Source: an alpha proteobacterium L41A | GTDB lineage: Bacteria > Pseudomonadota > Alphaproteobacteria > Caulobacterales > Caulobacteraceae | Length of the DNA: 64,000 nucleotides | Assembly: GCA_000335735.1 (NCBI GenBank) | Contig: AMYY01000004.1 | Span: forward strand, 1 to 64,000 | Direction: 5' to 3' | Shown: positions 1,147 through 20,836 of the stretch, piece by piece | How the letters are laid out: each line of letters opens with the position of its first letter | Numbering within the stretch: the first letter of the stretch is position 1 | Translations under genes and position numbers: made by a program | Notes under the pieces: model-generated | Seen by the model: the letters and a program-made list of their open reading frames with translations, nothing else | Told to the model about the DNA's origin: nothing | Databases searched by the model: none

Positions 1147-1177
1147 CTCTGCGCCAGGCCTCGCGCGCGCGCACGGC

Positions 1178-1258: not shown

Positions 1259-1348
1259 GGGCGTCTTCCTTGCTTGGAGCCCCGGTCATCGACCAATCCG
1301 CAGCCTGTGACAGGTGCGACCCACTGATCGTCCCCCCCTGATCTGAGA

Positions 1349-2362: not shown

Positions 2363-2374
2363 CGCGACCGCTGC

Positions 2375-3922: not shown

Positions 3923-3931
3923 CCCTCAGCC

Positions 3932-4817: not shown

Positions 4818-4955
4818 ATGACGACCAACGATCCTGAAAAGCACCGCTTCGACTTCGAAGCCCCTGGTTGGCGACTTTCCGCCAGCGGCCTCGGACTCGC
4901 CGTGGTGGTGGTGCTCGCCCTCGTGGCCACCATCTACTTCACTTTCGCCGGCTAG
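4818..4955 (+). CDS. 45-residue single-span membrane protein
   Basis: A short ORF from ATG 4818 to TAG 4953-4955. The product has a charged hydrophilic N-terminus (MTTNDPEKHRFDFEAPGW) and one C-terminal hydrophobic helix of about 22 residues rich in Val, Leu and Ala, ending FTFAG. Codon third positions are strongly G/C, as in the real genes here. The SD (AAAGG, 11 nt before the ATG) is weak and lies in a hairpin. The gene converges on the parB-like gene and shares the terminator hairpin at 4976-5002. Function unknown. Confidence 0.6.
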   Translation: MTTNDPEKHRFDFEAPGWRLSASGLGLAVVVVLALVATIYFTFAG

Positions 4956-4969
4956 CCGGCGCTCACAAC

Positions 4970-5002
4970 AAAAAAGCCGCGCGCCCCCAAAGGGCGCGCG
5001 GC
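4970..5002 (-). terminator. intrinsic terminator of the parB-like gene
   Basis: A perfect 11-bp GC stem (4976-4986 with 4992-5002, loop CCAAA) is followed on the minus strand by six T residues. It lies 22 nt past the stop of the ParB-like gene. For the convergent small membrane ORF on the plus strand it could act as a weak second terminator. Confidence 0.9.
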
Positions 5003-5024
5003 GAGTTTTCACACCTGACGCCGT

Positions 5025-7079: not shown

Positions 7080-7160
7080 GTCTGCCTCCTTTGGGCAAGG
7101 GTTGCAGGCACGCGGAAGGCGCGCCTGAAAGCCTGCCCGTCGGCGAGACCGGGGTAGCAA

Positions 7161-7297
7161 GGGCCAGGGCGGATCGGCCGGAGGGGGATCGCCCGGCCTG
7201 CACAAGCCTCAAGGTCATCAGTGACGGTCGCCAGTCGCCGGCGCGGAAGGCCGGGGAGACCGGCCGATCCGGCGGCGAAGCCGCTTTACCCTGGCCC
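7161..7297. repeat. bipartite inverted repeat with nested hairpin
   Basis: The left arm (7161-7181) is matched by a right arm split in two: a 12-bp block CCGGCCGATCCG at 7260-7271 and an 8-bp block CCTGGCCC at 7290-7297. The 18 bases between the two right blocks form their own small hairpin (GCGGC gaa GCCGC). The element lies between the stop of the TrlF-like gene and the start of the ParB-like gene, in a 270-bp non-coding gap. It could be a structured leader, a protein-binding centromere-like site or a transfer origin. Confidence 0.6.
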
Positions 7298-7349
7298 GCG
7301 CGAGGGCGGAGCCCTTAGCGGCTGGACTGTCGTGACTTGAGCGGCTGCC

Positions 7350-10331
7350 CTATCGCCGGAGCCTCACGCGGAGGCGACGGGCGCGCTCCTTGAAAGCGAA
7401 CTCGCCGCCTTCGAGGATGTCACAGACCGTCTTGCGGATTGTCTGGTTCTCGAGGCCGCCGCTCATGTAGGTGATCGGGGGAAGGCTCCCGGCCGGATGA
7501 GGTCCCGACTCCGCGACGATGATCTGATCCGCATCGGTGTTGATCACCAGGTTCGCGTTGTGCGTGACCATGATGACCTGCCGTTTCCGTTTGGCGGAAA
7601 TGAAGAGTCCGACGAGCTCCTCGAACACCGACTTGGGATCCAGGTTTTCCTCGGGCTGATCGATGATCAAGGGACGATCATCCCCTTCGTCGAGCGCCAG
7701 ATAGAGCAGCAGAAGGACGATACCGCGCGTTCCCGGAGACAGTTTCCGGATGTCGATTCCGTCGTAGGCGATGCCGTAGCGGATCTCGAGGTGGTCGGTG
7801 CTGAAGAGCCAGAGGGCGAACCGCTTCAACCACGCACGCATCTCGACGGGATCGTTGGTCGGCACCGGCGAATGCTGGAGCAAATCCTTCTGGTAGGCGT
7901 CGCGGAACGTGATCATCGCCGCCGCCACGTCCTCGGCGCTTCCACTCTCCCAGGCAGGCCCCAGCTGAGCCTTGGCGGCGTCGATCAGGGCGCCGCGGCC
8001 GCGGAACGGCCCCTGTTTGCGGAGGTCGAGAAGCCCCTCTTCGGCGGCACTGGCCCAACGCTCGACGTCGGCGACCCGCGAGACGGAGAAGGTGAGCTTC
8101 TTCAGGGTGCCGGGCGAGCTCGCCAGACGCTCCATCAGCGGGCGATAGAGGTCTTCGAGCACCGTCTGTTCGGCGACGAGCGCGGCAAAAGCGCGTTGGT
8201 AGGCGGCGTCCCGTTCAAGGTCGAGGGCCTTGATCCGGTCGGCTGCGCCTTGCGCTTCCTTGAGCCGTTCTTTCGCCGCCTCGAGCGCTGCGGTCTCGAT
8301 CGTGATCTTCTGCGTGAGCTCGCTATAGCGCCGCTGGATGTCGCGGTCTGCGCTGATCAGGCCCTCGAGCCGGGTCATCTCGGCCTCGAGCAGAAGCAGC
8401 GGCAAGGCAGAGAGGTCTGCATCCGCCGCGATCAAGGGGGTCCCCGGATCCTGTTGAGGGGGCGGCGGGGCGCCACGCAGCCGGGCGATCTCGGCATCGG
8501 CCCACTTCACATAGCCGACCAGATTGTCATCGACCTTGCCCTTGTAGTCGAGCAGGAAGGCGGCCCATTGGTCGGGGGTCATGAAGCCTTCGCGGTGGCG
8601 CGCCATCATCGCCCTCAGCGCTTCCGGCGCGCCCGTCGCCCGCATTGCGCCCACCTCGGACTGCACCGCCAGGAAGGCCTGGCGCTGGGCGACCAGGGTC
8701 CGGTTCTTCGTCCGCAGCGCCTCAGCCGCGCCGAACAGTGCGGTGTGCCGCGCGACGTTGGTCTCACTGTCCTTGGCGACCAGCTTGGCGCGATCGGTCG
8801 TGTAGGCGTTAATGAGGTTGGTCTTCTGGAGGATATGGGCTTCATACGCGCCCCGGAGCTTGTCCTTCTCATGCTCGAGGCCGATGCGCTCGGACATGGC
8901 GGCGATGGCCTCCACCTCTCTCGCTCTTGCGAGGCTGTGGAGCCTGGTCCGCCCCTCCCGCAGCTCAGCGAAATCGACCGCGCCTTCGCGTGTTGAATAC
9001 GGGTGCGCCTCGAAGATAACCCGTTCGATCTCTCGCAGGAGGGCGTCCGTCATCCCGCTCGACGAGCAGAGCTCCTCGACGAACTGCTGCGACAGGTAGC
9101 GTGCGCGCGGATAGTTCAGGGGATCGTTCGCGTCTCGCCCGTCGAGGAAACGGTTTGCGCTGTCGCCGCCCGCCCATTCAACGGTGATCGTCTCCTCGCC
9201 GATCAGCGGCCGTGCTCGGGCAAGGAAGGAGGCACTCACGCCTTTCTGGTCCTGCCAGACGACTGGGGAGACCGCGTCGCATCCTGCAGCGATCATGTCC
9301 GCCAAGGCCGTCTTGCCGGAGCCTCGCGCACCGATGATGGCGACCAATCCGGGGTTCAACTGGATCTCGGGGGTGACAATCCAGTCCGCACCCGCCGTTC
9401 GCACCGACGAGATGACCTGTGACGGCGTCGCGGCGGCTGGTGGTTCGGCGCCGACATGGGCGCGACCACCTGGGTCGATGCACGCCTGGCGAAGCGCGTC
9501 GAATTCAAGGCCGCCCTTGATCCAGGAGAAGCGATCTCCGAAGGGGGCTCCCACGTCATCGGCCTTGTGCGCGTCACTGCCGTGGAGACAGGGTTTGAGG
9601 CCATTGTAGCGAGATCGGAGCGCCGCTTCGTCCAACGCCTTTCGTCCCAGCCAGAAGTCGCGCTGAGCGTCACTGCTGGCGAAGATCACATGGGCGAAGC
9701 GTTCGATCTCCTGGCGGGTGACCTGATCGGCCGCTTCCCGAACGCCCGCAGTGCCGTCCCCGGAGCCGCCGGCGACGGCGATGAGAACATTGGCCCGAGC
9801 CCAGGCGTCCTCGTCCCAGACCGTGCGAAGCTGGTCGAAACTGACCTTGAACTGTGTCGCTCCATGCTCGAGAGCTGCGCGCTCCTCCAACTGCGGGCCC
9901 TTGTCCCGACGCCCCAGTCGAATGAGCTCTGACCGGGTGCAGTCGAAGCGGTCATCGAACGCTCTGAACTCCAGCCGGGCCAGGAAGCGCTGGATACGCT
10001 CTACGTGATCGTCGTCCTCGGGACTGACGAGCAGATGCATGTTGACGAAGCCGGTCTTCGCCGCGACGTGCAGACGCAACTCGACGTTCGGAAAAACAAG
10101 CTGGACGTTTGGCAGACGCCCCTCGTCCCGACGCCTGCGAAGCACTTCCTCATACGTGTCCGTGACGTAGTAGTCCGTAACGGCCACAGCTTCGATGAGA
10201 GGCGTGGCCGCTTCCAGCGCCGTGAGATAGTCCTCCCAAGCGGTTGGCCCACTGAACTGATTGTTGAGCACCGTCCCCGGCGCGTGGATATGCGGCTCCC
10301 ATCGCCGCCATTCCGAACCCCGACCCAGCAT
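7350..10331 (-). CDS. PHP-domain/SMC-type ATPase (TrlF-like), 993 aa
   Basis: The N-terminal 300 residues form a PHP phosphoesterase domain: HIH at 14-16, VTDYY, FPNVELRL, and LHGSDAHK near 252. An SMC/ABC ATPase follows, with Walker A GARGSGKTAL near residue 335, a long coiled-coil middle (about 440-800), the signature LSPGTRG near 865, Walker B LIIDQPEENLD near 888, and an H-loop VTHNANL. This layout is that of TrlF-family proteins, which are often found in defence islands; the substrate is unknown. The SD is GGAGGGG just before ATG 10331. It stands alone on the minus strand, downstream of no obvious partner. A nucleic-acid-processing defence role is inferred. Confidence 0.88.
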   Translation of the reverse strand: MLGRGSEWRRWEPHIHAPGTVLNNQFSGPTAWEDYLTALEAATPLIEAVAVTDYYVTDTYEEVLRRRRDEGRLPNVQLVFPNVELRLHVAAKTGFVNMHLLVSPEDDDHVERIQRFLARLEFRAFDDRFDCTRSELIRLGRRDKGPQLEERAALEHGATQFKVSFDQLRTVWDEDAWARANVLIAVAGGSGDGTAGVREAADQVTRQEIERFAHVIFASSDAQRDFWLGRKALDEAALRSRYNGLKPCLHGSDAHKADDVGAPFGDRFSWIKGGLEFDALRQACIDPGGRAHVGAEPPAAATPSQVISSVRTAGADWIVTPEIQLNPGLVAIIGARGSGKTALADMIAAGCDAVSPVVWQDQKGVSASFLARARPLIGEETITVEWAGGDSANRFLDGRDANDPLNYPRARYLSQQFVEELCSSSGMTDALLREIERVIFEAHPYSTREGAVDFAELREGRTRLHSLARAREVEAIAAMSERIGLEHEKDKLRGAYEAHILQKTNLINAYTTDRAKLVAKDSETNVARHTALFGAAEALRTKNRTLVAQRQAFLAVQSEVGAMRATGAPEALRAMMARHREGFMTPDQWAAFLLDYKGKVDDNLVGYVKWADAEIARLRGAPPPPQQDPGTPLIAADADLSALPLLLLEAEMTRLEGLISADRDIQRRYSELTQKITIETAALEAAKERLKEAQGAADRIKALDLERDAAYQRAFAALVAEQTVLEDLYRPLMERLASSPGTLKKLTFSVSRVADVERWASAAEEGLLDLRKQGPFRGRGALIDAAKAQLGPAWESGSAEDVAAAMITFRDAYQKDLLQHSPVPTNDPVEMRAWLKRFALWLFSTDHLEIRYGIAYDGIDIRKLSPGTRGIVLLLLYLALDEGDDRPLIIDQPEENLDPKSVFEELVGLFISAKRKRQVIMVTHNANLVINTDADQIIVAESGPHPAGSLPPITYMSGGLENQTIRKTVCDILEGGEFAFKERARRLRVRLRR

Positions 10332-10450
10332 TGCCCCTCCAGCTGTGTTTTCCTCAATCTAATGCGTTTCTACGGGACAGGCGCAAGTTGAGAAGCCGCC
10401 GATGGCCACAACCACCACCAGGAAAACTGACGCGCGGCTCTCGGTCGTGA

Positions 10451-11350
10451 TTACCCGGCGATCAGCACCGAGATCGGACAGTGATCCGACGGGTGTTCGT
10501 CTTCTGGCAGGCCGCCGTACCGGTACTCATGAAACGATCCCGGCGCGACCCGCGCGGACGCGCGAACGCCGGTAGCGATGAAGTCGATATACTCGCGATA
10601 GCGCACCTTGCAGCCCGCCGGTCGATTTCCGGATGTCAGCGTCAACATCGAGCCCGCAGGCTCGCCGTCGTTCAGGTCCGCGAGGAAAGCGTCTCCGGCT
10701 CCGGCCAGACGGCGGTTCCAGTCGCCGAGGACGACGAAGGCCGCGCCTTCGCGAGCCCGCGCCTCGGTCCAGCCTTCCAGGATAGGGAGTTGGTCGAAGA
10801 GCACCGGGCAGTCCGGGTCGGCGGGATCGCGACCGGCGTTGCATCCTGATTTCAGATGCACGGCCAAGAGGCGGACCGGCCGTCCCCTCGAGACGGTGAT
10901 GTCCACGCCCCACCGCAAGTCCGGATTGCCCAGCGCCAGGGCGCTAAGGTCCGGGTTGCGTGTCCAGGGGATGCCCTTGCGGATGGCGAAGCCCACGGCC
11001 TGGTTCTGGATGAAGAGACCGGGCCGTCCCCGGCATTCGCCGCTGCGCGTACTCGGTGACCGACCAGACATCACCACGTCGTAGAGCGCGGGATCGAAGA
11101 CCCGCTCGGCTGCGGCGCGGTTCTGGACCTCCTGGAAGGCGACGACATCGGCGCCCAGCGCGATCGCGTGCTCACGAAGACGGGCGTAATCAGCCTCAGT
11201 GCGCGGTGCGCACCCTTCCCCATCCCGTTCGGCCAGATGCTCCAGGTTCCAGCTCGCGACCTTCAGCGCGTCGCTCCCGCGCGACGGCGTCCAACCAGCG
11301 CAGCCCGCCAGTAGGGCGGCTGAAAGAGAGAGCGCGATCAAGGATTTCAT
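10451..11350 (-). CDS. endonuclease/exonuclease/phosphatase lipoprotein
   Basis: The start at ATG 11350 gives a lipoprotein signal (LIALSLSAALLAGC), whereas the frame extends further upstream without a signal. The mature 280 residues have the EEP fold motifs: VASWNLEHL, VVAFQEVQ, AVHLKSGC, VVLGDWNR and the final HPSDHCP. Such secreted proteins hydrolyse phosphodiesters (DNase I-like) or phospholipids. Substrate unknown. The SD AAAGGA is 13 nt upstream. It sits between the TrlF-like gene and small hypothetical genes, on its own. Confidence 0.87.
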   Translation of the reverse strand: MKSLIALSLSAALLAGCAGWTPSRGSDALKVASWNLEHLAERDGEGCAPRTEADYARLREHAIALGADVVAFQEVQNRAAAERVFDPALYDVVMSGRSPSTRSGECRGRPGLFIQNQAVGFAIRKGIPWTRNPDLSALALGNPDLRWGVDITVSRGRPVRLLAVHLKSGCNAGRDPADPDCPVLFDQLPILEGWTEARAREGAAFVVLGDWNRRLAGAGDAFLADLNDGEPAGSMLTLTSGNRPAGCKVRYREYIDFIATGVRASARVAPGSFHEYRYGGLPEDEHPSDHCPISVLIAG

Positions 11351-11671
11351 CGCCGGGATCCTTTCTGGAAAGGGTGCGGCCCGGCCGACGGCGGGTCGGC
11401 GCAGGGCCGCAGCCGGCGGCGAGGTCGGTCGCCAACCGGCGATCCCGCGTAGAGCATCAGACCGATTCTCGCGATCTCGCAGGCCCATCCGCGTCGTCAC
11501 ATTGCGCCCGGTCGGCGAGACTGTAGGCTAGGGGGCGACGGGTTCCGGGATGATAGGAGCCGATCTGGAGCCGGGGGACGTCCAGACGTCGGCGGCGGCC
11601 GGTTCCGAAACACCGGGCTTCTTCACAGAAGTTCCAGGCCCGTCCCCCATTCATCCTGCACGAGGATTGTT
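11351..11671. other. gap without a recognised gene
   Basis: These 321 bases separate the EEP lipoprotein gene (minus) from a small plus-strand gene. The sequence is GC-rich. The only regularities I see are a GACGTC pair two bases apart near 11577-11590 and several GGTTCC/CCGGTTCC words. Both flanking promoters must lie here, but I cannot point to a box. Confidence 0.4.
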
Positions 11672-11950
11672 GTGGCCGAAGAGTTCTCCAGCGAGGAAGC
11701 GGAGGTCTATGCCGACCTAGCCGAACGGGCCGGCGTCGTGGCCCGCCGCATCCTCGCGGAACGCGGCCTCGTCTATCTCGACGATCTCGATCCTGAAGCG
11801 GCTCGTGAGGTTCTGAGGACGGCCTGGCGCTGCGCCGCCGAAGACCGCTTACCCGGTCAGGACATCGCCGAGCTGCACGAGGAGATCGACGCCATGGTCG
11901 AGAGCCTGATCATGACCCCGGCCAAGCCCGAGGGCGTGGCGCTGCACTGA
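11672..11950 (+). CDS. small acidic hypothetical protein, 92 aa
   Basis: Starts at GTG 11672 with GAGGA spaced seven bases upstream. The product is helical and strongly acidic (EEFSSEEAEVYADLAERAG at the N-terminus, then repeated Asp/Glu), with no catalytic motif. I do not recognise it. Codon third positions are as G/C-rich as in neighbouring genes, which supports coding. It converges on the 103-codon gene. Confidence 0.65.
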   Translation: MAEEFSSEEAEVYADLAERAGVVARRILAERGLVYLDDLDPEAAREVLRTAWRCAAEDRLPGQDIAELHEEIDAMVESLIMTPAKPEGVALH

Positions 11951-11963
11951 ACATCGTCGTTCG

Positions 11964-12275
11964 TCAGGCGTCCGTCGATTTCGACAGCAGCTCGCGATAG
12001 GGTTCGCCGCGTCCGCCGGCCTCCGCCCGTGACAGCACCCGGGTCTCGAACTGCGAAGAGACCTGAACCTGGACCTCCCGGTAGCGCATCCCGTCCTGAA
12101 GGGAGGCGCATTTCACCTTTACCCCCGACAGGCTGCCGAGCCAGTCGTCCGTCTGGACCGTGACGAGGCCAGGCTGCAACTCTGGCGCCGTGGCTTCGGC
12201 GGCCATCCGGTCGAGCGTCTGATCGAGATCGTCACGGGTCATGCGACGGCCATAAGCGGAGTCGGTCACGGTCAT
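11964..12275 (-). CDS. hypothetical protein, 103 aa
   Basis: Unknown soluble protein. ATG 12275 is preceded by GAGG; an internal ATG at codon 12 (MTRDDLDQ) is an alternative. It has a mixed alpha/beta pattern with a central TVQTDDWLGSLSGVKVKCASL stretch. It is divergent from the CoiA-like gene, with about 95 bp between them. No function can be assigned. Confidence 0.6.
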   Translation of the reverse strand: MTVTDSAYGRRMTRDDLDQTLDRMAAEATAPELQPGLVTVQTDDWLGSLSGVKVKCASLQDGMRYREVQVQVSSQFETRVLSRAEAGGRGEPYRELLSKSTDA

Positions 12276-12371
12276 CCACCTCGAGCCCGGCCGCGAGATA
12301 CGTCAGTTTTGGTCGCACCCCGTCCAGGCCCACCTTGTCGCCGGAGGCGAAGCGGCGTCAGGTTCGGCGTG

Positions 12372-14264
12372 ATGTCGCGGCGAAAGGATCACAGCGAGTT
12401 TCTGGGGTTCCGCAAGGAGCTGGCCTATGGCCTGCGCGATGGCGTCCAGGTGTCCATCCGCGATGTCGAGCGCGGCGCGGCTTGCCGTTGTATCTGCCCG
12501 GCCTGTGGCGGCGAACTCGTAGCGCACAAGGGGGACATCCTCGTCCACCACTTCGCTCACGCCGGCTCCGGCGAAAGCTGCGGAACCGGTCTGGAGACCA
12601 ACGCGCACCTCTGGGCCAAACAGGCCCTGGGCGCCCATCTCTGGATACGGCTGCCGCCGTTGGTGGCCCAGGGCGGCGGCCTCGCCAGACAGGTCCACAG
12701 AGGTCAGGACTTCACCTTCCTCAAGGCCGAGCTGGAGAAGCGTGCCGGCGAGATCGTCCCCGACGTCGAGCTTACGGCGCGGGATGGAAGGCGTCTGATC
12801 GTCGAGGTGTTGGTGACCCACGCCTGCGGACCGGAGAAGATCGCACGGATCCGCGCCGGAGGCGTTTCCGCGATCGAGGTGGACCTGTCGGCCTGGAAGG
12901 ATTGCGACGACGCCGAAGAGGTCGCCCAGGCCTTGCTGACCAAGGCGCCGCGAGTCTGGCTCTTCAATCCCAAGCTCGACGAGGTCGGGGCCCTGCTCGC
13001 CAGCGAAGCCGAAGCGCGGGTGCGAGCGGAGGCGGCACGGCAAAAGGAGGCCGGCCGACGGCTGGTCGCCCGCATCCGCAAAGCCCCCGTCCGCCGGCCG
13101 CGTGAGCTGGAGCCGATGCGCGCCGAGCTGGTCCGTCTGGGCTATGGGCGGCTGGTCGGCGGCGCCAGGCCCGGCGACGGCTTCGTCGTGCCGGCGCATC
13201 TGTGGAAGGCCGCCGCCCTGTCCCGGCTCGTCGCGCGCGCGCTCGATGGCCGGCCGGTCGATCAGGTGACCCCGGAAATGCTTCTGGGTCTGATCCGGGA
13301 CTGCCTCTGGAGCGATGATCGTCCGCCCCGGCAAAGAGCGAGCCTGGACGCGCTGAGGTCAGCTGTGCCCGGCTTCCGACCGCCCAGCGAAGCGATGCAG
13401 GCCTTTATGGACGACCTGCAGAGCGAAGGGCTCCTGTTGTATCGCAAGGGCGATCATCGCCTGTCGCCCGCGCTCATCGAACGGGTTCGATCCGACCGGG
13501 AAGCTCGCCGCGCCGCCGCAGCGGCCGAGGCGGCGCGGCTGCGGCGGGAGATGGATGTCCAGGCCGGATTGGAACGCCTGTTCGCTCTGGCTGAGCGGCC
13601 GACGGAGGACGACGCCTTCTCCCTGGCGGCGTGGACTCGCAATTCGCCGGTCGCCCCCGGACGGAGTCTGGCCGATCTTGTGATGGCCGGCGACGCCGAC
13701 TGGCGGGCGCTTCTCTCCGGCCTCTCGGCCATCGAGCGGATGCTGGAGGGGGGGGCGCTGACGGATGAGCTCCTCGGCCTGCCGTTCGAGGAGCGGCTCG
13801 AGGAGGCCCGGCGGCAGGCAGCGTGGATCGTGGCCCAGGAACGGGCGGCCCAGGAAGAGGCCGAACGTCGCGCCAGAGCTGGGCGGATGGTCGCTATTCG
13901 AGAGGCGGCCTGGGCCGCCCTGAACGGCGAGGCCGAATACTGGCTCTCATCCCCTTTGGCGCCGGGTGCCGCCTGCGCGATCAGGACGTCCGAGCAATCC
14001 GACGAGGGCCTGGGCGCCGCGCTGGGCGCCCTCAGGCGCCATGTCGCGGAACTGGAGGAGGCCGCCCGCAAGGCCGTGGTCATCGAGGGCTTTCAGGCTC
14101 GGCTTCGGCAGGCCGCCGGGGCAAGCTTCGAGCCCGCCCGCGCCGAGTTCTTCCTCAACAACCGCCGCCCCGAACTCGGCATGGCGACCCCGCTGGCGTA
14201 CTGTGTCGATGAGCGCAGCCTGCGGGAGGCGATGAGCCTTCTCGGAAGTCGGTCCAAACGATAG
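12372..14264 (+). CDS. CoiA-like nuclease with DUF2384-like C-terminus
   Basis: Residues 38-62 carry C-x-x-C and the HHFAH motif of CoiA-family proteins. Residues about 128-157 give a restriction-endonuclease-like core (PDVELTARDG, then IVEVLVTHACG), so Mg-dependent DNA cleavage is likely. The middle is helical and Arg/Glu-rich. The last 45 residues (AEFFLNNRRPELGMATPLAY) resemble the toxin-binding end of Xre/MbcA/ParS (DUF2384) antitoxins. I start at ATG 12372; an upstream ATG at 12309 adds 21 unlikely basic residues. It is the first gene of a plus-strand set with hipB, hipA and a RES toxin gene. CoiA in Gram-positive bacteria acts in competence; here a mobile-element or defence role is more likely. 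Confidence 0.78.
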   Translation: MSRRKDHSEFLGFRKELAYGLRDGVQVSIRDVERGAACRCICPACGGELVAHKGDILVHHFAHAGSGESCGTGLETNAHLWAKQALGAHLWIRLPPLVAQGGGLARQVHRGQDFTFLKAELEKRAGEIVPDVELTARDGRRLIVEVLVTHACGPEKIARIRAGGVSAIEVDLSAWKDCDDAEEVAQALLTKAPRVWLFNPKLDEVGALLASEAEARVRAEAARQKEAGRRLVARIRKAPVRRPRELEPMRAELVRLGYGRLVGGARPGDGFVVPAHLWKAAALSRLVARALDGRPVDQVTPEMLLGLIRDCLWSDDRPPRQRASLDALRSAVPGFRPPSEAMQAFMDDLQSEGLLLYRKGDHRLSPALIERVRSDREARRAAAAAEAARLRREMDVQAGLERLFALAERPTEDDAFSLAAWTRNSPVAPGRSLADLVMAGDADWRALLSGLSAIERMLEGGALTDELLGLPFEERLEEARRQAAWIVAQERAAQEEAERRARAGRMVAIREAAWAALNGEAEYWLSSPLAPGAACAIRTSEQSDEGLGAALGALRRHVAELEEAARKAVVIEGFQARLRQAAGASFEPARAEFFLNNRRPELGMATPLAYCVDERSLREAMSLLGSRSKR

Positions 14265-14279
14265 GAAGCCGCACCCCCA

Positions 14280-14303
14280 TAAGTCGTCAAAGTTGACGAC
14301 TTA
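14280..14303. promoter_or_regulatory. HipB-type operator O1
   Basis: A 24-bp dyad with perfect 10-bp arms TAAGTCGTCA and TGACGACTTA around AAGT. It is the most upstream of four similar sites in front of hipB, 40 bp from O2. Its position just after the CoiA-like stop codon could also let HipB act on upstream read-through. Confidence 0.8.
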
Positions 14304-14319
14304 GTCGAGAAATTCGCGA

Positions 14320-14343
14320 TAACTCGTCACCTATGACGAATTA
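14320..14343. promoter_or_regulatory. HipB-type operator O2
   Basis: A 24-bp dyad, arms TAACTCGTCA and TGACGAATTA around CCTA, with one mismatch between the arms. It is 46 bp from O3. Confidence 0.8.
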
Positions 14344-14365
14344 TCACGCTAAACCTACCCGCTCA

Positions 14366-14389
14366 TAATTCGTCATTGTTGACGAATTA
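14366..14389. promoter_or_regulatory. HipB-type operator O3
   Basis: A 24-bp dyad with perfect arms TAATTCGTCA and TGACGAATTA around TTGT. Its right arm contains the likely -35 hexamer TTGACG, so bound repressor would block RNA polymerase. It is 41 bp from O4. Confidence 0.85.
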
Positions 14390-14408
14390 ACCCTCAGAGT
14401 GGTAGATA
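14379..14408 (+). promoter_or_regulatory. predicted hipBA promoter
   Basis: TTGACG (14379-14384) and TAGATA (14403-14408) are spaced by 18 bp. Transcription would start near 14415, giving a leader of only about 15 nt, which fits the lack of a Shine-Dalgarno before the hipB ATG at 14430. O3 covers the -35 and O4 begins at the end of the -10. Confidence 0.6.
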
Positions 14409-14430
14409 ACTCGTCGAAAGTGACGAATTA
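14407..14430. promoter_or_regulatory. HipB-type operator O4
   Basis: A 24-bp dyad, arms TAACTCGTCG and TGACGAATTA around AAAG. It runs from the -10 region up to the A of the hipB start codon, so it covers the expected transcription start. Confidence 0.82.
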
Positions 14431-14783
14431 TGAAGATCACCAATCTCACCACGGATCAGACGGTTCTGGCCGAACTCGGCCGAAGAACGGCCGACTATCG
14501 ACTGCAACGTCATATGACCCAATCGCAGTTCGCCGAAGCCGCGGGCGTTTCCAAGAGCACCGTTGAGCGTCTCGAAGCGGGCGAGTCCGTCCAGCTCATC
14601 AATCTCATCCGGGCCCTGCGCGTCCTCGACAAGCTTGAGGCCTTCGATCGCTTCCTGCCGGAGGCTCCGGCCAATCCCGTCGATCTTCTGGAGCGCCACG
14701 GCAAGACCCGACAGCGCGCCCGGCCGGACGCCCGACCGGACGAAGACGTCGGTCAGCCCTGGCGTTGGGGAGACGACGCATGA
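14430..14783 (+). CDS. hipB: HipB-like antitoxin, Xre-family repressor
   Basis: A 117-residue protein with a helix-turn-helix at about 29-52 (MTQSQFAEAAGVSKSTVERLEAG). The C-terminal 40 residues are rich in Arg, Pro and Asp and probably flexible. Its stop overlaps the hipA ATG (ATGA), the usual hipBA coupling. HipB neutralises the HipA kinase and represses its own operon; the four dyads in front of the gene, the last touching the ATG, are the likely binding sites. There is no Shine-Dalgarno, so the mRNA may be nearly leaderless. Longer than E. coli HipB (88 residues). Confidence 0.88.
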   Translation: MKITNLTTDQTVLAELGRRTADYRLQRHMTQSQFAEAAGVSKSTVERLEAGESVQLINLIRALRVLDKLEAFDRFLPEAPANPVDLLERHGKTRQRARPDARPDEDVGQPWRWGDDA

Positions 14784-16078
14784 CCCTCGCCGCCGTCAAT
14801 CTGTGGGGGCGCCGCATCGGCGCCGTCTCGCTGGCCGAGGGCGCCGACGTCGCGACCTTCGCCTATGAACCGGCTTTCGTGCGCTCCCAGATCGAGGTGG
14901 CGCCGCTGTTCATGCCGCTCGGCGACCGCATCTACAGCTTTCCGGGCCTGAACCCCGAGAGCTTCTACGGCCTGCCGGGCCTGCTCGCCGACGCCCTGCC
15001 CGACCGCTACGGCCACACCCTGATCGACGCCTGGCTGGCGACCCAGGGCCGGACGCCAGACAGCTTCGATGCCGTGGAGCGGCTCTGCTACATGGGCGCG
15101 CGCGGCATGGGCGCACTGGAGTTCACACCGGCGGCGGGGCCGCGGACCCGCAAGTCGGAACGGATCCATATCGAGAGCCTTGTTCAGTTGGCCTCGGAAG
15201 TGCTCAGCAATCGCAACACCCTGCAGGTGTCCTTCGCCGACCCAGACAAGGCCGCCGCCCTGCATGAAATCCTGCAGGTCGGCACCTCGGCCGGCGGCGC
15301 CCGCGCCAAGGCGGTGATCGCCTGGAACCCGGAGACGAACGAGGTCCGCTCCGGCCAGGTCGAGGCCGGAGATGGTTTCGGCTACTGGCTCCTCAAGTTC
15401 GACGGGGTCAGCAACAACAAGGACCGGGGATTGGCCGACCCCCAGGGCTACGGCGCCGTGGAGTTCGCCTATTCCGAGATGGCCAAGGCGGCCGGGATCT
15501 CGATGACGGACTGCCGGCTCCTTCCCGAGGGCGGACGCCGTCACTTCATGACCCGACGGTTCGACCGCACGGAGGCCGGCGGCAAGCTGCACATGCAATC
15601 GCTCGCGGCCCTTGCCCACTACGACTACTGCAGCCCCGACAGCTACACCTATGAGCAGGCCTTCCAGGTCATGCGGCGGCTGGGTCTGCCGATGGACCAG
15701 ATGGAGGAGCTGTTCCGACGCATGACGTTCAACGTCGTAGCCCGGAACCAGGACGACCATGTCAAGAACATCGCCTTCCTGATGGATCGCGAAGGCGTCT
15801 GGTCGCTCGCCCCCGCCTATGACGTGACCTGGGCGATGGATCCGACGAACAAGTGGCTCCGGCAGCACCAGATGTCGGTCAATGGCCGCCGCGACGACTT
15901 CACCCGCGCCGACCTCGAGGCCTGCGCGGCCACGGCGTCGATCAACGCGGCCCGCGCCCGCGCCATCATCGACGAGGTGGTGGCGACCGTGACCGACTGG
16001 CCGGGCTTCGCGGAGGCCGCCGAGGTCGATGAGGCCATGCGCGCCTCGATCGACCCCAGCTTGCGCGTCAACCTCTGA
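14780..16078 (+). CDS. hipA: HipA-like serine/threonine kinase toxin
   Basis: The 432-residue product has the HipA layout: an N-terminal beta-barrel region, a glycine-rich phosphate loop VGTSAGGARAKA near 170, the catalytic segment VARNQDDHVKN near 318-328, and the Mg-binding PAYDVT near 348. E. coli HipA phosphorylates glutamyl-tRNA synthetase and causes growth arrest; other HipA-like kinases choose other tRNA synthetases, so the target here is open. I start at ATG 14780, which has GGGGAGA upstream and overlaps hipB; a start five codons earlier is unlikely. The RES gene begins 40 nt after its stop. Confidence 0.92.
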   Translation: MTLAAVNLWGRRIGAVSLAEGADVATFAYEPAFVRSQIEVAPLFMPLGDRIYSFPGLNPESFYGLPGLLADALPDRYGHTLIDAWLATQGRTPDSFDAVERLCYMGARGMGALEFTPAAGPRTRKSERIHIESLVQLASEVLSNRNTLQVSFADPDKAAALHEILQVGTSAGGARAKAVIAWNPETNEVRSGQVEAGDGFGYWLLKFDGVSNNKDRGLADPQGYGAVEFAYSEMAKAAGISMTDCRLLPEGGRRHFMTRRFDRTEAGGKLHMQSLAALAHYDYCSPDSYTYEQAFQVMRRLGLPMDQMEELFRRMTFNVVARNQDDHVKNIAFLMDREGVWSLAPAYDVTWAMDPTNKWLRQHQMSVNGRRDDFTRADLEACAATASINAARARAIIDEVVATVTDWPGFAEAAEVDEAMRASIDPSLRVNL

Positions 16079-16118
16079 CACCCTCGCGAACCCGCGTTAC
16101 AGCGCCTATGTCCGGATC

Positions 16119-17528
16119 ATGACCGACGCGGACGACCCCGAGGATACGGACGACAAGCGCCTGTGCGTCCAGTGCATCGGCGACGAATTTCTAACCGCCG
16201 AGATCCTGAAAACCGGGCAGACCGCCGTCTGCGGCTATTGCGGCAAGACCGACAAGACCGAGACCATCAGCGAGCTGGCAGATCGGTTCCACGACGTCTT
16301 CGAAGAGCACTACGAGCGCGCCGGCGAAGTGGGCTGGGAAAACGAGCGGGGCGACCCTGTCGACTATCTGGTCGCGGACATCGGACGTCTGCCGGAGACC
16401 GCCGCCAGCGATATCCAGGAGGTCATGGCCGATCGGCACGAAGACCGGGAACTCTCGGAGATGGGCGACAAGAGCCCCTACGACGCCGAGCTGACCTATG
16501 TGGAGAGCAACGTCGACATCCGGGAATTCGAGGAGGCCTGGGAACACCTGGAAGCCGATCTGCGGACCCGCCATCGCTTCTTCAGTCGAGAGGCCGAGGA
16601 AGTGTTCTCCCGGGTGTTCGCGGACCTGCGCACCCAGAAGACCTGGGAAGGACGCCCGGTCATCAGAACGATTGGACCGGGGACCGACATCACGGCCCTG
16701 TACCGTGCGCGGGCGTTCCAGTCCGAAGCCCGGTTCGACGAGGCCATGATTGATCCGGAGCAGTACGTCGGCACGCCGGCGACCATCTATGCCCAGGGCG
16801 GCCGAATGAATCCCAAGGGCGTGCCGTTCTTCTACGGCGCGACGAAGGAGAAGTTGGCGCTCACGGAAGTTCGCCCACCGGTCGCCAGCAAGGTACTGGT
16901 GGGACGGTTCGATCTGCAGCACGAACTCCGTGTGCTGGACGTCGAGGCGCTGGAGAATGTCCTGGAGCGCGGCAGTCTGTTCGATCCCGGGTTCAGCCAG
17001 CGCCTCGCACGGGCAAAATTCCTCGGCCGTCTGGCGCGTCGGATTCGGATGCCCGTCCTGCCCGACGACGAGGCGACCGACTACCTGATCACCCAGGTGA
17101 TGGCGGACTTCCTCGCGATGCGGCTGGCCCCCGAGATTCACGGAGTGATCTACGGCTCGGCGCAGGGCACGGCGGACGCGTTCAACGTCGCCCTGTTCAA
17201 CGCGTCCTCACGGGTGCGTGCAGCCGAGGTGGTGAAGAACGCGTCCTACGAGGTGCGGTTCTCCGGGAACGATGAAGAGATCGACGCCTGCGTGGTCACG
17301 ACCACAATCACCCCATCGCCGCCGGAACCGCCGAAGACCACAAAGCGGGGCATAATCTTCGAGTACGTTCCCCCGGACCCGGCGACGTCCGACCTGCGCC
17401 CGGAGACGCTGGTGCTGGATCGCGACAGCCTGCGCCTTCACCTCGTGAAAGAGATCTGCGTCGATACGGATACGCTCTCGATCCATCGCTTCACGCACGA
17501 CGACAGCGACTCGGACACGCCCTTCTGA
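16119..17528 (+). CDS. RES-domain toxin with N-terminal zinc ribbon/HEPN-like domain
   Basis: Residues 16-41 have two C-x-x-C pairs (a zinc ribbon). Residues about 45-185 are helical and match the N-terminal domain seen in 'HEPN/RES' proteins (ELADRFHDVFEEHYERAGE). The RES domain starts near 190 with YRARAF and has GRMNPKGVPFFYGA and LALTEVRPP. RES toxins are ADP-ribosyltransferase-fold enzymes that break down NAD+. They are normally paired with an Xre-DUF2384 antitoxin, and no such gene is adjacent. It follows hipA by 40 nt and probably shares its promoter; 15 nt after its stop comes the 3' end of the convergent tRNA-Leu. Confidence 0.85.
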   Translation: MTDADDPEDTDDKRLCVQCIGDEFLTAEILKTGQTAVCGYCGKTDKTETISELADRFHDVFEEHYERAGEVGWENERGDPVDYLVADIGRLPETAASDIQEVMADRHEDRELSEMGDKSPYDAELTYVESNVDIREFEEAWEHLEADLRTRHRFFSREAEEVFSRVFADLRTQKTWEGRPVIRTIGPGTDITALYRARAFQSEARFDEAMIDPEQYVGTPATIYAQGGRMNPKGVPFFYGATKEKLALTEVRPPVASKVLVGRFDLQHELRVLDVEALENVLERGSLFDPGFSQRLARAKFLGRLARRIRMPVLPDDEATDYLITQVMADFLAMRLAPEIHGVIYGSAQGTADAFNVALFNASSRVRAAEVVKNASYEVRFSGNDEEIDACVVTTTITPSPPEPPKTTKRGIIFEYVPPDPATSDLRPETLVLDRDSLRLHLVKEICVDTDTLSIHRFTHDDSDSDTPF

Positions 17529-17543
17529 GTGAGGCGGCTGGAT

Positions 17544-17853
17544 TGGTGCGGGCGGCCGGGGTCGAACCGGCATGGGCAATGCCCGACGGATTTTCATACC
17601 ACTTCGACTTTCGCCGCCGCCCCGCTCCGGAGAGCGAGGACGTTCGTGGTCTGGACTATCCCTTCGTCATAGCCCGAAGGCCTTAGACGCCGCCCGTCTA
17701 GTCTCTACACCTTCCCGTCCGGAGACGGGCTTGGCTCGGGATCGCCATCTGACAGGGTTCCCCGACTTTGAGCGGTTCTACGTCCGGGATTTCCCCCAGC
17801 GCACTCAATCCTCAGCTTAAGTCCGTTGCGTCTACCAGTTTCGCCACGCCCGC
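17544..17853 (-). tRNA. tRNA-Leu(UAA) with intron
   Basis: Exon 1 is 17819-17853 and exon 2 is 17544-17594, 86 nt when joined. The acceptor stem GCGGGCG pairs with CGCCCGC, followed by A73 and an encoded CCA. The anticodon stem ACGGA/TCCGT closes a CTTAAAA loop, anticodon UAA. A long variable arm (GGGC att GCCC) and a GCCGG/CCGGC T-stem complete a type II Leu tRNA. The intron breaks the gene between U34 and A35. A sigma-70-like promoter lies 13 nt upstream of the 5' end. Confidence 0.93.
17595..17818 (-). ncRNA. group I intron in tRNA-Leu(UAA)
   Basis: The intron is 224 nt, inserted after U34 of the anticodon, and ends in G, as group I introns do. Exon ACUU can pair with a GAGU guide about 12 nt into the intron with a U-G wobble at the 5' splice site (P1). 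The core words CGATCCCGAGCCAAG, AAGGTGTAGAGACTA and GGATAGTCC match the conserved regions around P4-P6 and P7, and GACTA/TAGTC gives P7. There is no room for a homing endonuclease. The insertion site is the one used by cyanobacterial and plastid tRNA-Leu introns. Confidence 0.9.
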
Positions 17854-17866
17854 GAGCCGAGCCAGC

Positions 17867-17896
17867 TCTATAGCCGTGTTCGTGCCATAGAGCCAA
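17867..17896 (-). promoter_or_regulatory. predicted promoter of intact tRNA-Leu
   Basis: On the minus strand TTGGCT and TATAGA are spaced by 18 bp and end 13 nt before the tRNA 5' end. The sequence also forms a dyad (GCTCTAT/ATAGAGC at 17865-17893). It begins directly after the integrase stop codon, so it lies on the integrase side of the junction. Confidence 0.6.
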
Positions 17897-17902
17897 GCAG
17901 GC

Positions 17903-19207
17903 TCACGCGACGTCCGTCGCCTCCGCCTTCTTCGCCCGCCGTTTCGCGGGCTTTGGCTTGCGGACGTTGATCGCCGAGGCGTCCAGCACATTCTTGATGT
18001 GTGAGGCGTAGTATTTCTCGATCATCTCCACGCTGGTCCGACAGTTCTTGGCGACCTGATAGATGTCGGCCCCTTCCATCAAACGCATCGAGATGTAGGT
18101 GTGGCGCAGGCTGTAGGCGGTCCTCGGTCGACCATCTCGATCCTTCTTGAGTCCCAGTTCGTCGAGAACGGCATTCAACAGCTCGCGCTGCACGAGCCCG
18201 AAGACCAGATCGGTGGGCTGACCATTCTTCCGCTTGAGCACCCGTTCGAACGGCCGCACCGCGCCGGGCATGCTCTTGCAGTAGCCGACCCCGCGTTTGC
18301 CGCGCACCTCGATCTCCAGGATGCGTTCCCCGGTCGCGTCGTCCTCGACGATCGATACGTCCCGGAACTCCAGGCGCTGAGCCTCGTCGGGGCGTAGACC
18401 CGTGTTGACCATGAACAGCACGAAGTCGTGGAACTGCTCGCACTCCTCCCGCCAGCGCTCCTTCTTCGGGTTTTTCGCACGCTCGCGCGTCGCCTCGTAA
18501 AGGCACTTGTACTCCTCCGGCGAAAACCACGCGCGGTGGCTCACCTTCCCCGACGCACGATAGGGATTGCTCATATCCGGGAGCGCCGAAATCCAGCCCT
18601 TCCGGTTCGCCGCCTTCAGGATTTGGCGCAGGCAGACCATCTCGTTGTGCAGGGTTTGGCGGCTGGGCCGTTTCCACGCTTTGGCCTTGCCTATGCGTTC
18701 CCGCCCGTCAGCAACGTAGCGCACCCGCTCCGGCTCGTCGGGCGGAGTGACCCGGTGAAGGCGATAGTCCTGGATGCGCCCGGCCGTGACCTCGGAAACC
18801 GGCAGGTCGCCGAAAAAGGGGTCGAGGTAGAGACGGATCACCCTCCCCTTGCCGGCGACGTAGTGGGCGTTCCGCTCTCCGAGCGTCATCGCCTCGAACT
18901 CTTTCACGAACGCGGCGGCGGCTTCGCGGAAGGTCTTCTCTCCCGGCTTCTTCGGCTTGGTTCGCTCGGGGATGACAACCGGCGCATCGGGCGCCGATGG
19001 CAGCGCGCCCCGCCGCCTCAACCGGTCCTCTGCGACGCGGTCCAGATACCAATCCTGCGCGAACTCGCGTGCGTAGGCGACGTTGGTTTCCTTGGTCGAC
19101 TGACGATGATTGCGACCGCTCAGATAGGTCGCGCACTGCCAGTACCGGCTGTTCTCCCGTCGATAGACGTGGAGCCGGCCGTCCATGAGCGTGTGAGACT
19201 CCGCCAC
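17903..19207 (-). CDS. tyrosine-type site-specific integrase
   Basis: A 434-residue phage/island integrase. The catalytic Arg is in NTGLRPDEAQ (R272), the HxxR-type box is SLRHTYISMR near 366-375, and the nucleophilic Tyr is in EMIEKYYAS near 399. The N-terminal half contains the arm-binding and core-binding (SAM-like) domains; the Lys/Arg-rich tail is disordered. It starts at GTG 19207 with AAGGAGG four bases upstream. The gene runs in the same direction as the two tRNA-Leu sequences that flank it, 49 nt after its stop and about 100 nt before its start. It probably inserted this element at tRNA-Leu(UAA). Confidence 0.93.
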   Translation of the reverse strand: MAESHTLMDGRLHVYRRENSRYWQCATYLSGRNHRQSTKETNVAYAREFAQDWYLDRVAEDRLRRRGALPSAPDAPVVIPERTKPKKPGEKTFREAAAAFVKEFEAMTLGERNAHYVAGKGRVIRLYLDPFFGDLPVSEVTAGRIQDYRLHRVTPPDEPERVRYVADGRERIGKAKAWKRPSRQTLHNEMVCLRQILKAANRKGWISALPDMSNPYRASGKVSHRAWFSPEEYKCLYEATRERAKNPKKERWREECEQFHDFVLFMVNTGLRPDEAQRLEFRDVSIVEDDATGERILEIEVRGKRGVGYCKSMPGAVRPFERVLKRKNGQPTDLVFGLVQRELLNAVLDELGLKKDRDGRPRTAYSLRHTYISMRLMEGADIYQVAKNCRTSVEMIEKYYASHIKNVLDASAINVRKPKPAKRRAKKAEATDVA

Positions 19208-19233
19208 ATGACCTCCTTGCCGCGAACGGCAAC

Positions 19234-19252
19234 TGTGTAAGGCATGTGTAAG
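19234..19252. repeat. direct repeats, possible integrase arm sites
   Basis: TGTGTAAG occurs twice at an 11-bp period (19234-19241 and 19245-19252), followed by a weaker TCTGTAAC. The sites lie just upstream of the integrase start and within 100 bp of the tRNA-Leu fragment, as expected of arm-type binding sites in attP or of an autoregulatory operator. Confidence 0.45.
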
Positions 19253-19274
19253 TCTGTAACTCCGCTAATTCGTT

Positions 19275-19292
19275 GATTTATATACGTAAATC
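19275..19292. repeat. AT-rich dyad beside the junction
   Basis: GATTTA and TAAATC flank TATACG, a perfect 6-bp inverted repeat inside the most AT-rich stretch of the region (19257-19310). It lies 12 bp from the end of the truncated tRNA and could be a bending-protein or recombinase core site. Confidence 0.4.
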
Positions 19293-19304
19293 TACGGTAG
19301 TGGG

Positions 19305-19343
19305 TTTTAAGTCTGCTGCGTCTACCAGTTTCGCCACGCCCGC
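19305..19343 (-). pseudogene. truncated tRNA-Leu(UAA), 5' half only
   Basis: The minus strand reads a full tRNA-Leu 5' acceptor strand, D-arm and anticodon 5' stem and stops right after the seven-base loop CTTAAAA (anticodon UAA). The first 27 nt are identical to the intact intron-containing gene; the anticodon stem differs (GCAGA instead of ACGGA). No matching 3' half follows: the next bases, CCCACTACC, cannot pair. The break at the loop is where tRNA-targeting tyrosine recombinases often cross over, so this is probably one attachment-site half. Confidence 0.85.
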
Positions 19344-19353
19344 AGCCCGGTCT

Positions 19354-19388
19354 GGCCCGGTTCGGCTCCCTATAGACGGAACCGGGCC
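19354..19388 (-). other. 10-bp stem hairpin after the M28 gene
   Basis: GGCCCGGTTC and GAACCGGGCC form a perfect stem with a 15-base loop. It lies 15 bp past the M28 peptidase stop and could end that transcript, but no T-run follows. It overlaps the promoter-like sequence of the truncated tRNA. Confidence 0.45.
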
Positions 19389-19398
19389 GGGTCTCCAA
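19369..19398 (-). promoter_or_regulatory. promoter-like sequence upstream of truncated tRNA-Leu
   Basis: TTGGAG and TATAGG are spaced by 18 bp on the minus strand, 25 nt before the 5' end of the tRNA half. If active, it would now transcribe the tRNA stub and run on into the integrase gene. Confidence 0.5.
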
Positions 19399-19402
19399 GT
19401 CG

Positions 19403-20836
19403 TCAGCGTGTCGGGGTCGCCGGCTTCATCGCCCGGAAGTCCACGTCGGAATCGGCGATCAGCCACAGCAGGCCGGCCCAGGCGGCGACGTTCTGGCTCA
19501 GTTGCGCCGGATCGATCTTGTCGAGCGTGTCGTTGGCGGTGTGGTGCAGGTCGAAATAGCGGGTTCCATCCTGAGCCAGGCCGAAGAAGGGCACGCCCAG
19601 CGGGCCCATCGGCCCGACATCGACGCCGCCTTCGGTCTCGACGCGATCGGAGGCCAGAACGCCGATCGGATAGAGGACGCGGGTCGCGGCCTTCTGGAAG
19701 TCGGACCCTTGCGCGCCGGCGGGCAGGCGCAGGCCATAGACGCGGTCGGCGCCGAAATCGCTCTCGCCGGCGATGATGTGCTTGTCCAGCGCTGCGCCCT
19801 GGCCGCGGGCGTAGACGCCGCCGCCGTTGCCGGTCTGGGCGGTCGGCTGGGCCACTTCTTCCGAACCGTAGAAGATGACGCGCAGGGTTCGGGCCGGGCG
19901 GCGGCCGCTGTCGGCGATGGCCTTGGCGGCGGCGATGGTGATGGCGCCCCCTGCCCCGTCGTCGATGGCGCCGGTGCCCAGGTCCCAGCTGTCCATATGC
20001 GACCCCAGGACGATGATCTCGTCGGGGCGCGTGGCGCCCGGCAGATCGCCGATCACATTCTGGCTGGTGGTGCGATAGGTGCGGGCGGTCGAGGTCAGAC
20101 GCATGCGCACCGGCTGGCCCAGGGCGACCAGGCGGCTGACCTGATCGGCGTCGGGCGCGGCCAATGCGAAGGCGGGGATGGTCGGCTTGCCGTCGACATA
20201 ACGTGTGGTGCCGGTGTGCGGCATCCGGTCTTCGTCAGAGCCCACCGAACGCATGACGAAGGCCGCAGCGCCCTTGGCCGCCGCCACACCGGGGCCGGTG
20301 CCGCGCACGCGGGTCTGAGGGCCATAGCCGGAGCCGTCCTGCATGGGGTGCATCTGGCCCAGATCGACATAGACGATCTTGCCGCGCACGGCGGCGTCGG
20401 GCGCGGCTTGCAGGTCTTCGAAGGTGGAGAAGCGAACGATCTCCGCCTCGACGCCGCCCCTCGGCGTGGCCGGCGAGTGGCCCAGGGCGGCGGCGACCAG
20501 GGCCTGGGCGTTGTCGCCGACGATGGCGGCCGAGCTTTCGCCCCGCTCCCAGCCGACCAGCGGGAACTCTTCGATGCGGACGTTCTGGAAGCCGTTGGCG
20601 CGCAGATAGTCGGCGGCCCAGGCGGCGGCCTGTTGTTCGGAACGCGAACCCGCCGGGCGCGCGCCGAACCGCGTCGTCAACTGGGTGACATAGTCCATGG
20701 CGATGTTCGACCGCATCGCGGCGTCGCGCACGACGATCGCCTGCTGCACCGTCGCCGCATCCTGCGCATGAGCCGCCGGGGTCAAGGCGACAAGACCCAG
20801 GGCGACGGCGCTGGCGGTCAGCGAACGGATGGACAT
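19403..20836 (-). CDS. M28 family metallopeptidase
   Basis: A secreted 477-residue aminopeptidase/carboxypeptidase-like zinc enzyme. Residues 1-24 are a Sec signal peptide ending AHA. A PA (protease-associated) domain insert lies about 140-260. The co-catalytic zinc motifs follow: GSHMDSWDLGTGAIDDGAG near 290, YGSEE near 340, and DLHHTANDT near 440. It is expected to act in the periplasm on peptides. It is monocistronic and marks the first ordinary chromosomal gene next to the tRNA/integrase junction. Confidence 0.92.
   Translation of the reverse strand: MSIRSLTASAVALGLVALTPAAHAQDAATVQQAIVVRDAAMRSNIAMDYVTQLTTRFGARPAGSRSEQQAAAWAADYLRANGFQNVRIEEFPLVGWERGESSAAIVGDNAQALVAAALGHSPATPRGGVEAEIVRFSTFEDLQAAPDAAVRGKIVYVDLGQMHPMQDGSGYGPQTRVRGTGPGVAAAKGAAAFVMRSVGSDEDRMPHTGTTRYVDGKPTIPAFALAAPDADQVSRLVALGQPVRMRLTSTARTYRTTSQNVIGDLPGATRPDEIIVLGSHMDSWDLGTGAIDDGAGGAITIAAAKAIADSGRRPARTLRVIFYGSEEVAQPTAQTGNGGGVYARGQGAALDKHIIAGESDFGADRVYGLRLPAGAQGSDFQKAATRVLYPIGVLASDRVETEGGVDVGPMGPLGVPFFGLAQDGTRYFDLHHTANDTLDKIDPAQLSQNVAAWAGLLWLIADSDVDFRAMKPATPTR

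Follow-up and report, generated by a model that had tools for sequence, protein, structure and literature searches.

At the left end of the window (the whole stretch of 64,000 nucleotides analysed here), a large integrative conjugative element of a Brevundimonas-like genome very likely has one of its ends, with its excision and transfer being inferred. Its tyrosine integrase very likely crossed over within the anticodon loop of the single tRNA-Leu(UAA) gene of the host, as inferred from sequence alone. The element probably carries its own shielded replacement tRNA-Leu(UAA), whose integrase core is interrupted by an intron; blocked recombination, splicing, and mobility are inferred. The sequences establish the two ends with their core, the exact empty site, the replacement gene with its intron, and the pattern across the family; that the element is still mobile is an inference.

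On the minus strand, the window presents the M28 peptidase gene, a tRNA-Leu 5' half, the integrase gene, and a complete interrupted tRNA-Leu(UAA), in this order (Table 1). The M28 gene adjoins tRNA-Leu(UAA) in relatives, as seen by synteny. The orphan 5' half has the terminal letters ...GCAGACTTAAAA and has exactly its first 27 nt, GCGGGCGTGGCGAAACTGGTAGACGCA, in common with the complete gene; the window contains this string at two places, 17827 and 19317. The anticodon stems of the two copies differ (ACGGA/TCCGT in the complete gene vs. GCAGA in the orphan half). The initial annotation had claimed a second tRNA-Leu 5' half with 27 of 27 nt identical at its start, ending after the anticodon loop CTTAAAA at 19305, a tyrosine integrase between both copies and in the same direction, and differing anticodon stems. 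These claims held, with all the features on the minus strand. ARAGORN without intron mode detected no tRNA anywhere in the window, and with an intron allowed it reported tRNA-Leu (taa) plus an intron at homologous loci. We excluded a chance repeat because the empty site matches exactly and relatives show the arrangement again. An RF03944 (mir-935) match at 17536-17626 was sub-threshold and on the opposite strand, and was dismissed as chance.

Table 1. Features of the tRNA-Leu(UAA) locus and the element end in the window.
Feature	Positions	Strand	Basis or remark
M28 peptidase gene, chromosomal flank	19403..20836	-	Pfam PF04389; synteny
Orphaned 5' half of resident tRNA-Leu(UAA)	19305..19343	-	Stem GCAGA; joins G000:C2:124381-124437
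attL core GACTTAAAA	19305..19313	-	Anticodon stem positions 30-31 and loop
Two direct repeats CTTACACA, 11-bp period	19234..19252	-	Probable arm-type integrase sites
Tyrosine integrase, 434 aa	17903..19207	-	Pfam/PHROG matches, family alignment
Probable promoter of replacement tRNA, TTGGCT - 17 nt - CTATAG	17868..17896	-	Sequence pattern
5' exon of replacement tRNA-Leu(UAA), anticodon stem ACGGA	17819..17853	-	Sequence
Group I intron (very likely), 224 nt, after U34 of anticodon	17595..17818	-	RF00028 match; alignment of homologues
3' exon (AAAA and 3' half, CCA encoded) of replacement tRNA-Leu(UAA)	17544..17594	-	Sequence
Integrase-proximal end of integrative conjugative element (very likely)	1..19304	.	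Pfam; collinearity with G008 and G015 elements

The genome of the window (G000; window base 1 is the start of its contig C4) also contains the other end. The only genomic occurrence of TTAAAATCTGC is at 124427-124437 of contig C2, where it starts a tRNA 3' half with its CCA end at 124381; GTGTGTGACTTAAAA precedes this half. Joined at the shared GACTTAAAA, the orphan 5' half and the C2 3' half give, letter for letter, the 87-nt intact tRNA-Leu(UAA) of G028. G028 and G019 are the closest relatives, and in them the intact gene stands beside the same M28 gene. The core GACTTAAAA is common to both ends in G000 (C4/C2), G008, and G455, and a slightly shorter core, ACTTAAAA, is present at both ends in G015. 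Both ends were retrieved on one contig in G008 (about 90 kb apart) and G015 (about 84 kb apart), and in G455 the ends are about 12 kb apart with the same geometry. The repeats CTTACACA lie on the element side of both ends, one copy being degenerate on the attR side of G000, and this placement is the one expected for arm-type sites of an attP, which these repeats probably are.

The initial annotation had further proposed that the element broke a resident tRNA-Leu(UAA) and carries an intron-containing replacement, and the empty site and the displaced half support it. That no 3' half restores the gene in the usual way was supported too: both end copies are halves and the intact gene is separate. 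The missing 3' half, predicted to have the stem TCTGC, was found on another contig (G000:C2:124381-124437), and in the empty-site comparison the joined halves matched the intact gene of G028 and G019 over 87 of 87 nt. Close integrase-less relatives mostly lack the two tRNA copies and mostly have one uninterrupted gene beside M28, and the genome-wide count gave no second tRNA-Leu(UAA) gene, as predicted. Two points were refined. A mismatched stem had been expected from excision between the window copies; excision would instead join the orphan 5' half to the distant 3' half, and thus the stem would be restored without mismatch. The intron, in turn, seems not incidental: it occupies the integrase core, and intronless relatives have a base change there. 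Excision between the two window copies was ruled out because the 3' half of the resident gene is on contig C2. The tRNA-Leu(CAA) at G000:C26:27266-27347 was ruled out as the missing half since it is an intact gene.

A conventional reading would be an ordinary tRNA-targeting island, with the intact tRNA as its restored attachment site and no relation of the second 5' half, a mere duplicate, to the insertion. An integrase adjoining an intact tRNA with a fragment nearby is indeed the usual signature of such islands. However, here the fragment is a 5' half, and the matching 3' half is at the other end of the element, both together being the empty site of relatives. The exact empty-site match in G000, together with matching ends in three other genomes, refutes this reading. 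Moreover, the anticodon stem of the intact gene is a different one, and this gene hardly varies among hosts with differing orphan halves. The criterion for a conventional island (one intact hybrid tRNA gene at one end) was not met, as both end copies are halves. We consider this alternative all but excluded.

On C2 (about 105900-124381), about 18 kb of non-conserved DNA separates the displaced 3' half from the chromosomal flank that G019 also has. Thus, the tRNA site seems to have taken more than one insertion, with a probable second insertion.

At the gene level, the integrase matched PHROG integrases (E 1.6e-28) and, below the cut-off, PF00589 (E 4.6e-4). In the family alignment, R272, R368-H369, and Y399/Y400 are invariant, and the criteria for a tyrosine recombinase (a catalytic-domain match plus the active-site residues) were met. 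Its reading frame is open in G000. The NCBIfam profile search provided no name for it, the phage records searched held no relative at E 1e-20, and plasmid records held only four, with 44-52% identity. The predicted attP was not found in the viral contigs where we looked for it.

The element of G008 codes for VirB4, VirB5, VirB6, VirB9, VirB10, and a MobP1-like relaxase, as well as a CusA/CzcA-type metal efflux pump. Homologues of the G008 genes are in the same order on G000 contig C2, 77-91% identical, and the element part of the window on C4 continues a block collinear with the G008 and G015 elements. This part includes ORFs with Pfam matches to ParB-like, HEPN/nucleotidyltransferase, DUF3800, exo/endo phosphatase, CoiA-like, HipB/HipA-like, and RES-domain proteins. 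The criteria for an integrative conjugative element were met: attL and attR with a common core that rejoin to the empty site, and type IV secretion system (T4SS) genes plus a relaxase. If contigs C2 and C4 adjoin, the element could reach about 110 kb in all. Within the window, a HipB-like HTH (14430-14783), a HipA-like kinase (14765-16078), and a RES-domain ORF (16029-17528) form an overlapping row (14430-17528), a single module of the element with two toxin-like genes.

Among the 44 tRNA genes found in G000 (67 contigs, estimated 100% complete), none is a further tRNA-Leu(UAA); the leucine anticodons found are UAG, CAG, GAG, and CAA. Thus, the element-borne, intron-bearing gene is the sole source of this tRNA. 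By the established decoding rules, tRNA-Leu(UAA) is the only reader of UUA. This codon appeared once in 4818 codons of fourteen window ORFs, both chromosomal and element-borne, and so the tRNA is rarely used. The replacement tRNA likely has its own promoter, inferred from the sequence pattern: a -35/-10-like pattern resembling TTGGCT-17-CTATAG precedes most replacement tRNAs of the family.

It could also be argued that the intron-bearing gene was already resident, the orphan half being debris of an older insertion and the element immobile. In favor of it, the M28 locus of G009 and several other genomes has an intron-bearing gene but neither an integrase nor an orphan half. Against it, the G000 halves rebuild the resident gene perfectly, arm repeats are present at both ends, and the integrase frame is open. 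Across the family genomes, the intron-bearing gene is on the element side of the orphan half. Loci like that of G009 may be remnants: loss of the integrase through recombination between the identical 5' halves could possibly leave an intron-bearing resident gene, although this is inferred. This alternative is very unlikely, and an element that brought its own replacement gene remains our preferred reading.

We scanned 131 genomes of the genus, which is Brevundimonas by inference, defining a close integrase as at least 70% identical. Fifteen of the 131 had one. An orphan half ending in CTTAAAA was upstream of the integrase in 15/15, and an intron-bearing tRNA-Leu(UAA) was present in 15/15, usually 0.05 to 5 kb downstream of the integrase (in G505, on a different contig). 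Brevundimonas aurantiaca DSM 4731 and B. variabilis DSM 4737 are among the strains with this arrangement. The intron-bearing gene was also seen in 8 of the 116 genomes without a close integrase; thus, the intron alone is no proof of the element. The association between the intron-bearing gene and the close integrase in the genus gave a Fisher value of 2.6e-14, uncorrected for relatedness.

A wider scan with one genome per species retrieved 80 integrase loci, several of them from the same strains as the genus scan. The hosts were mainly Alphaproteobacteria, with some Gammaproteobacteria, Acidobacteria, Planctomycetes, and Verrucomicrobia. In most of the approximately 80 loci, an orphan tRNA-Leu 5' half (UAA or CAA) preceded the integrase by about 120-180 bp. 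Downstream of the integrase, mostly at 40-180 bp, these loci had a complete tRNA-Leu of the isoacceptor to which the orphan half belongs. Loci with this full layout were mainly alphaproteobacterial, with others from Acidobacteria and Gammaproteobacteria. Two loci were of UAG type. For the CAA types, the displaced 3' half was found in 9/9 genomes searched, once each, beside the same arm repeats. The orphan stems differ by host (GCAGA, AGGGA, CCGGA, and others).

Some loci departed from this layout. L203 has the orphan half, and we looked for its replacement tRNA and found none. Upstream of the integrase, L204, L228, L232, and L244 lack a tRNA half, and their core is enclosed by arm repeats; they resemble an uninterrupted attP and might be free elements or elements in another location. 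The core of L228 and L232 is that of tRNA-Leu(UAG), in the opposite direction. At L247, an integrase relative adjoins an initiator tRNA-Met; arm repeats and a 5' fragment of tRNA-Met lie upstream. This layout is unlike that of the tRNA-Leu loci, and the loop seems to be retained in the complete copy. L149 (G452:C1:1681884-1682093) contains a truncated integrase and an attL-like junction, GGCGGACTTAAAACCC, adjoining non-tRNA sequence, a possible off-target integration. Finally, paired tRNA-Leu(CAA) 5' halves or genes stand about 190 bp apart at G010:C22:38143-38349, G030:C147:438-647, and G031:C6:50234-50451. With no room for an integrase between them, these pairs could be scars of lost elements.

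Support for shielding comes from the core. We compared 84 integrase loci, 70 of them with both copies readable, taking the 9-bp core as positions 30-38. None of the 70 replacements kept the core of the orphan intact. An intron lies inside the core in 33/70 (32 UAA and 1 CAA), and a base change was found in the other 37, C32T in 29 of them. By isoacceptor, 32 of 33 UAA replacements have the intron and the one intronless UAA replacement has C32T; among intronless CAA replacements, 28 of 36 have C32T. Three further UAA loci, cut by contig ends, show the start of the same intron. In the near-minimal pairs L186, L192, and L234, the 5' anticodon stem plus loop differ from the orphan only by C32T. 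Among the resident genes compared within the genus, those for UAA nearly always keep GACTTAAAA, and those for CAA are mostly GACTCAAAA with a minority of GATTCAAAA. C32T was found as well in the resident tRNA-Leu(CAA) of some genus genomes. We infer that the intron, or else the base change, likely makes the replacement tRNA immune to the integrase of the very element that carries it.

These locus counts are uncorrected for relatedness beyond a paired test, and independent cases are perhaps 6 to 12. The integrase tree requires at least 11 target changes (UAA/CAA switches) and presents 10 changes of intron state. In independent pairs on this tree the intron follows UAA (5.3 same and 0 opposite of 6; p about 0.06). 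In the CAA replacements of L221, L222, L223, and L226, the sole difference from the orphan core is at position 30, and their protection is doubtful because this position varies among the targets of other family integrases. At L201 (about 3650-5400), an integrase cassette lies at a non-tRNA site, and its right end is a replacement 5' half broken in the loop (ATTCAAAAT). It may be a mini-element from recombination at the replacement tRNA or an assembly artefact, on a single fragmentary contig. Since the insert ends inside the loop of the replacement, C32T protection may leak.

Alternatively, the intron could be a passenger: the replacement gene would have been picked up from intron-bearing bacteria, with no role of the intron in blocking the integrase. 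Intron-bearing tRNA-Leu(UAA) without integrase was found in the eight genus genomes and in roughly 11 of 385 sampled Alphaproteobacteria at least (a lower bound), and the intron tree does not separate element-borne introns from the others. However, 32/33 element-borne UAA replacements have the intron and most resident genus genes do not. The passenger reading is also at odds with C32T in the same core of the intronless UAA replacement and the 28/36 intronless CAA ones, and with no replacement of the 70 keeping the core. We regard it as unlikely and favor a shielding role.

In the mechanism we propose, the integrase appears to need GACTYAAAA plus arms, and not the remainder of the tRNA. Integration would split the sole tRNA-Leu(UAA), leaving the 5' half beside the integrase gene and moving the 3' half to the far end. 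Just downstream of the integrase, the element would supply a complete tRNA-Leu of the same isoacceptor, likely with its own promoter, and therefore host and element halves would need no match. Since hosts differ outside the core, an element with only a 3' half would often give a mismatched tRNA. The complete replacement gene would itself be a target for the integrase; a self-splicing intron or a base change in the core would remove this target and keep the tRNA. Splicing would give a normal tRNA, and at the DNA level the gene would stay out of reach of the integrase. Excision, by joining the orphan half to the distant one, would recreate the original host gene.

Elements that target tRNA genes and cross over in the anticodon loop are already known (PMC8371274). 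As in these Campbell-type elements, we found a tyrosine integrase, an anticodon-loop crossover flanked by stem symmetry, arm-type repeats, and a direct core repeat at both ends; the element of the window has T4SS and relaxase genes as well. The usual element restores its target with its own gene portion, whereas here the target remains split, and the element adds a second, complete gene with its core interrupted or changed. For archaea, Randau and Soll 2008 (in PMC4090602, PMC4033280) proposed that introns and split tRNAs shield tRNA genes from integration. Our reading is alike in that an anticodon-loop intron would hide the attB core from the integrase. However, the archaeal hypothesis is one of host defence with enzymatically spliced introns, and here the case is bacterial, the intron is of group I, and the mobile element carries the protected gene. 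An insertion in the archaeal Caldiarchaeum (Sugahara 2012, described in PMC4033280) has the order tRNA fragment, recombinase gene, tRNA gene, and our locus shares this order; that description mentions neither a group I intron nor a replacement gene with a changed core.

The intervening sequence is very likely a group I intron of tRNA type, and its self-splicing is inferred. It matched RF00028 over the full model (1-253) with 39.4 bits (E=5e-8), below the Rfam gathering score of 50, which some introns in the tRNA-Leu(UAA) of other Alphaproteobacteria exceed. All 21 aligned homologues present a U.G pair at the 5' splice site and a G immediately before the 3' exon AAAA, and 32 of 79 predicted pairs have double-sided changes in this alignment. 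The intron splits the integrase core exactly, between GACTT and AAAA. On the intron tree, which has few well-supported branches, integrase-linked and integrase-free tRNA-Leu(UAA) introns are intermixed (15 changes vs. a shuffled mean of 16.5). We did not adopt the view that all resident intron genes derive from elements because of this poor branch support. Four tRNA-Leu(UAA) intron loci that an RNA search alone had retrieved from the sampled Alphaproteobacteria proved to adjoin a family integrase. Elements may thus possibly carry introns between species.

ORF-less group I introns in tRNA-Leu(UAA) and tRNA-Arg(CCU) have been described in cyanobacteria and Alphaproteobacteria (Paquin 1997/1999 in PMC4033280, PMC7717549). 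The intron of the window is likewise small, ORF-less, and in the anticodon loop, and we take its site after U34 to be that of the cyanobacterial tRNA-Leu(UAA) intron. Unlike the known bacterial tRNA introns, it sits in a gene that belongs to a mobile element and lies beside the integrase of that element; neither integrases nor islands come up in a review on bacterial group I introns (PMC3984707). In the literature searched, we did not find a mobile element with its own shielded, intron-bearing replacement tRNA, with many subscription papers outside the scope. Thus, the parts are known and, within this incomplete search, their combination is likely new.

If true, these findings would suggest a possible function for a bacterial group I intron, namely to shield DNA from an integrase with the RNA kept normal. 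Intron spread would be possible without a homing endonuclease, and there would be a reason for the position of group I introns in anticodon loops. The strategy would also open a route into an essential single-copy gene without a matching gene half, and the host range would widen. In a bolder reading, a widespread family targets tRNA-Leu loops and always brings a protected complete tRNA, with intron or core change; such elements would spread the ORF-less tRNA-Leu group I introns, which would be kept for immunity to integration. We see this bolder reading as evenly poised between acceptance and rejection. For annotation, ARAGORN without intron mode misses an essential tRNA carried by a mobile element.

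Other intron arrangements were observed along the way. A group I intron in a tRNA-Leu(CAA) (L251:7463-7783) lies between positions 33 and 34 and not after 34, and the intron at L114 has a 3' exon also resembling tRNA-Leu(CAA). L113, L115, and L125 hold group I introns in apparent tRNA-Lys(UUU) of other Alphaproteobacteria. Lastly, L095 (G052:C28, from another family) has at about 9385-9910 of the locus a broken tRNA-Leu(UAA) and, about 156 bp beyond it, a divergent intron-bearing tRNA-Leu(UAA), with no integrase between them.
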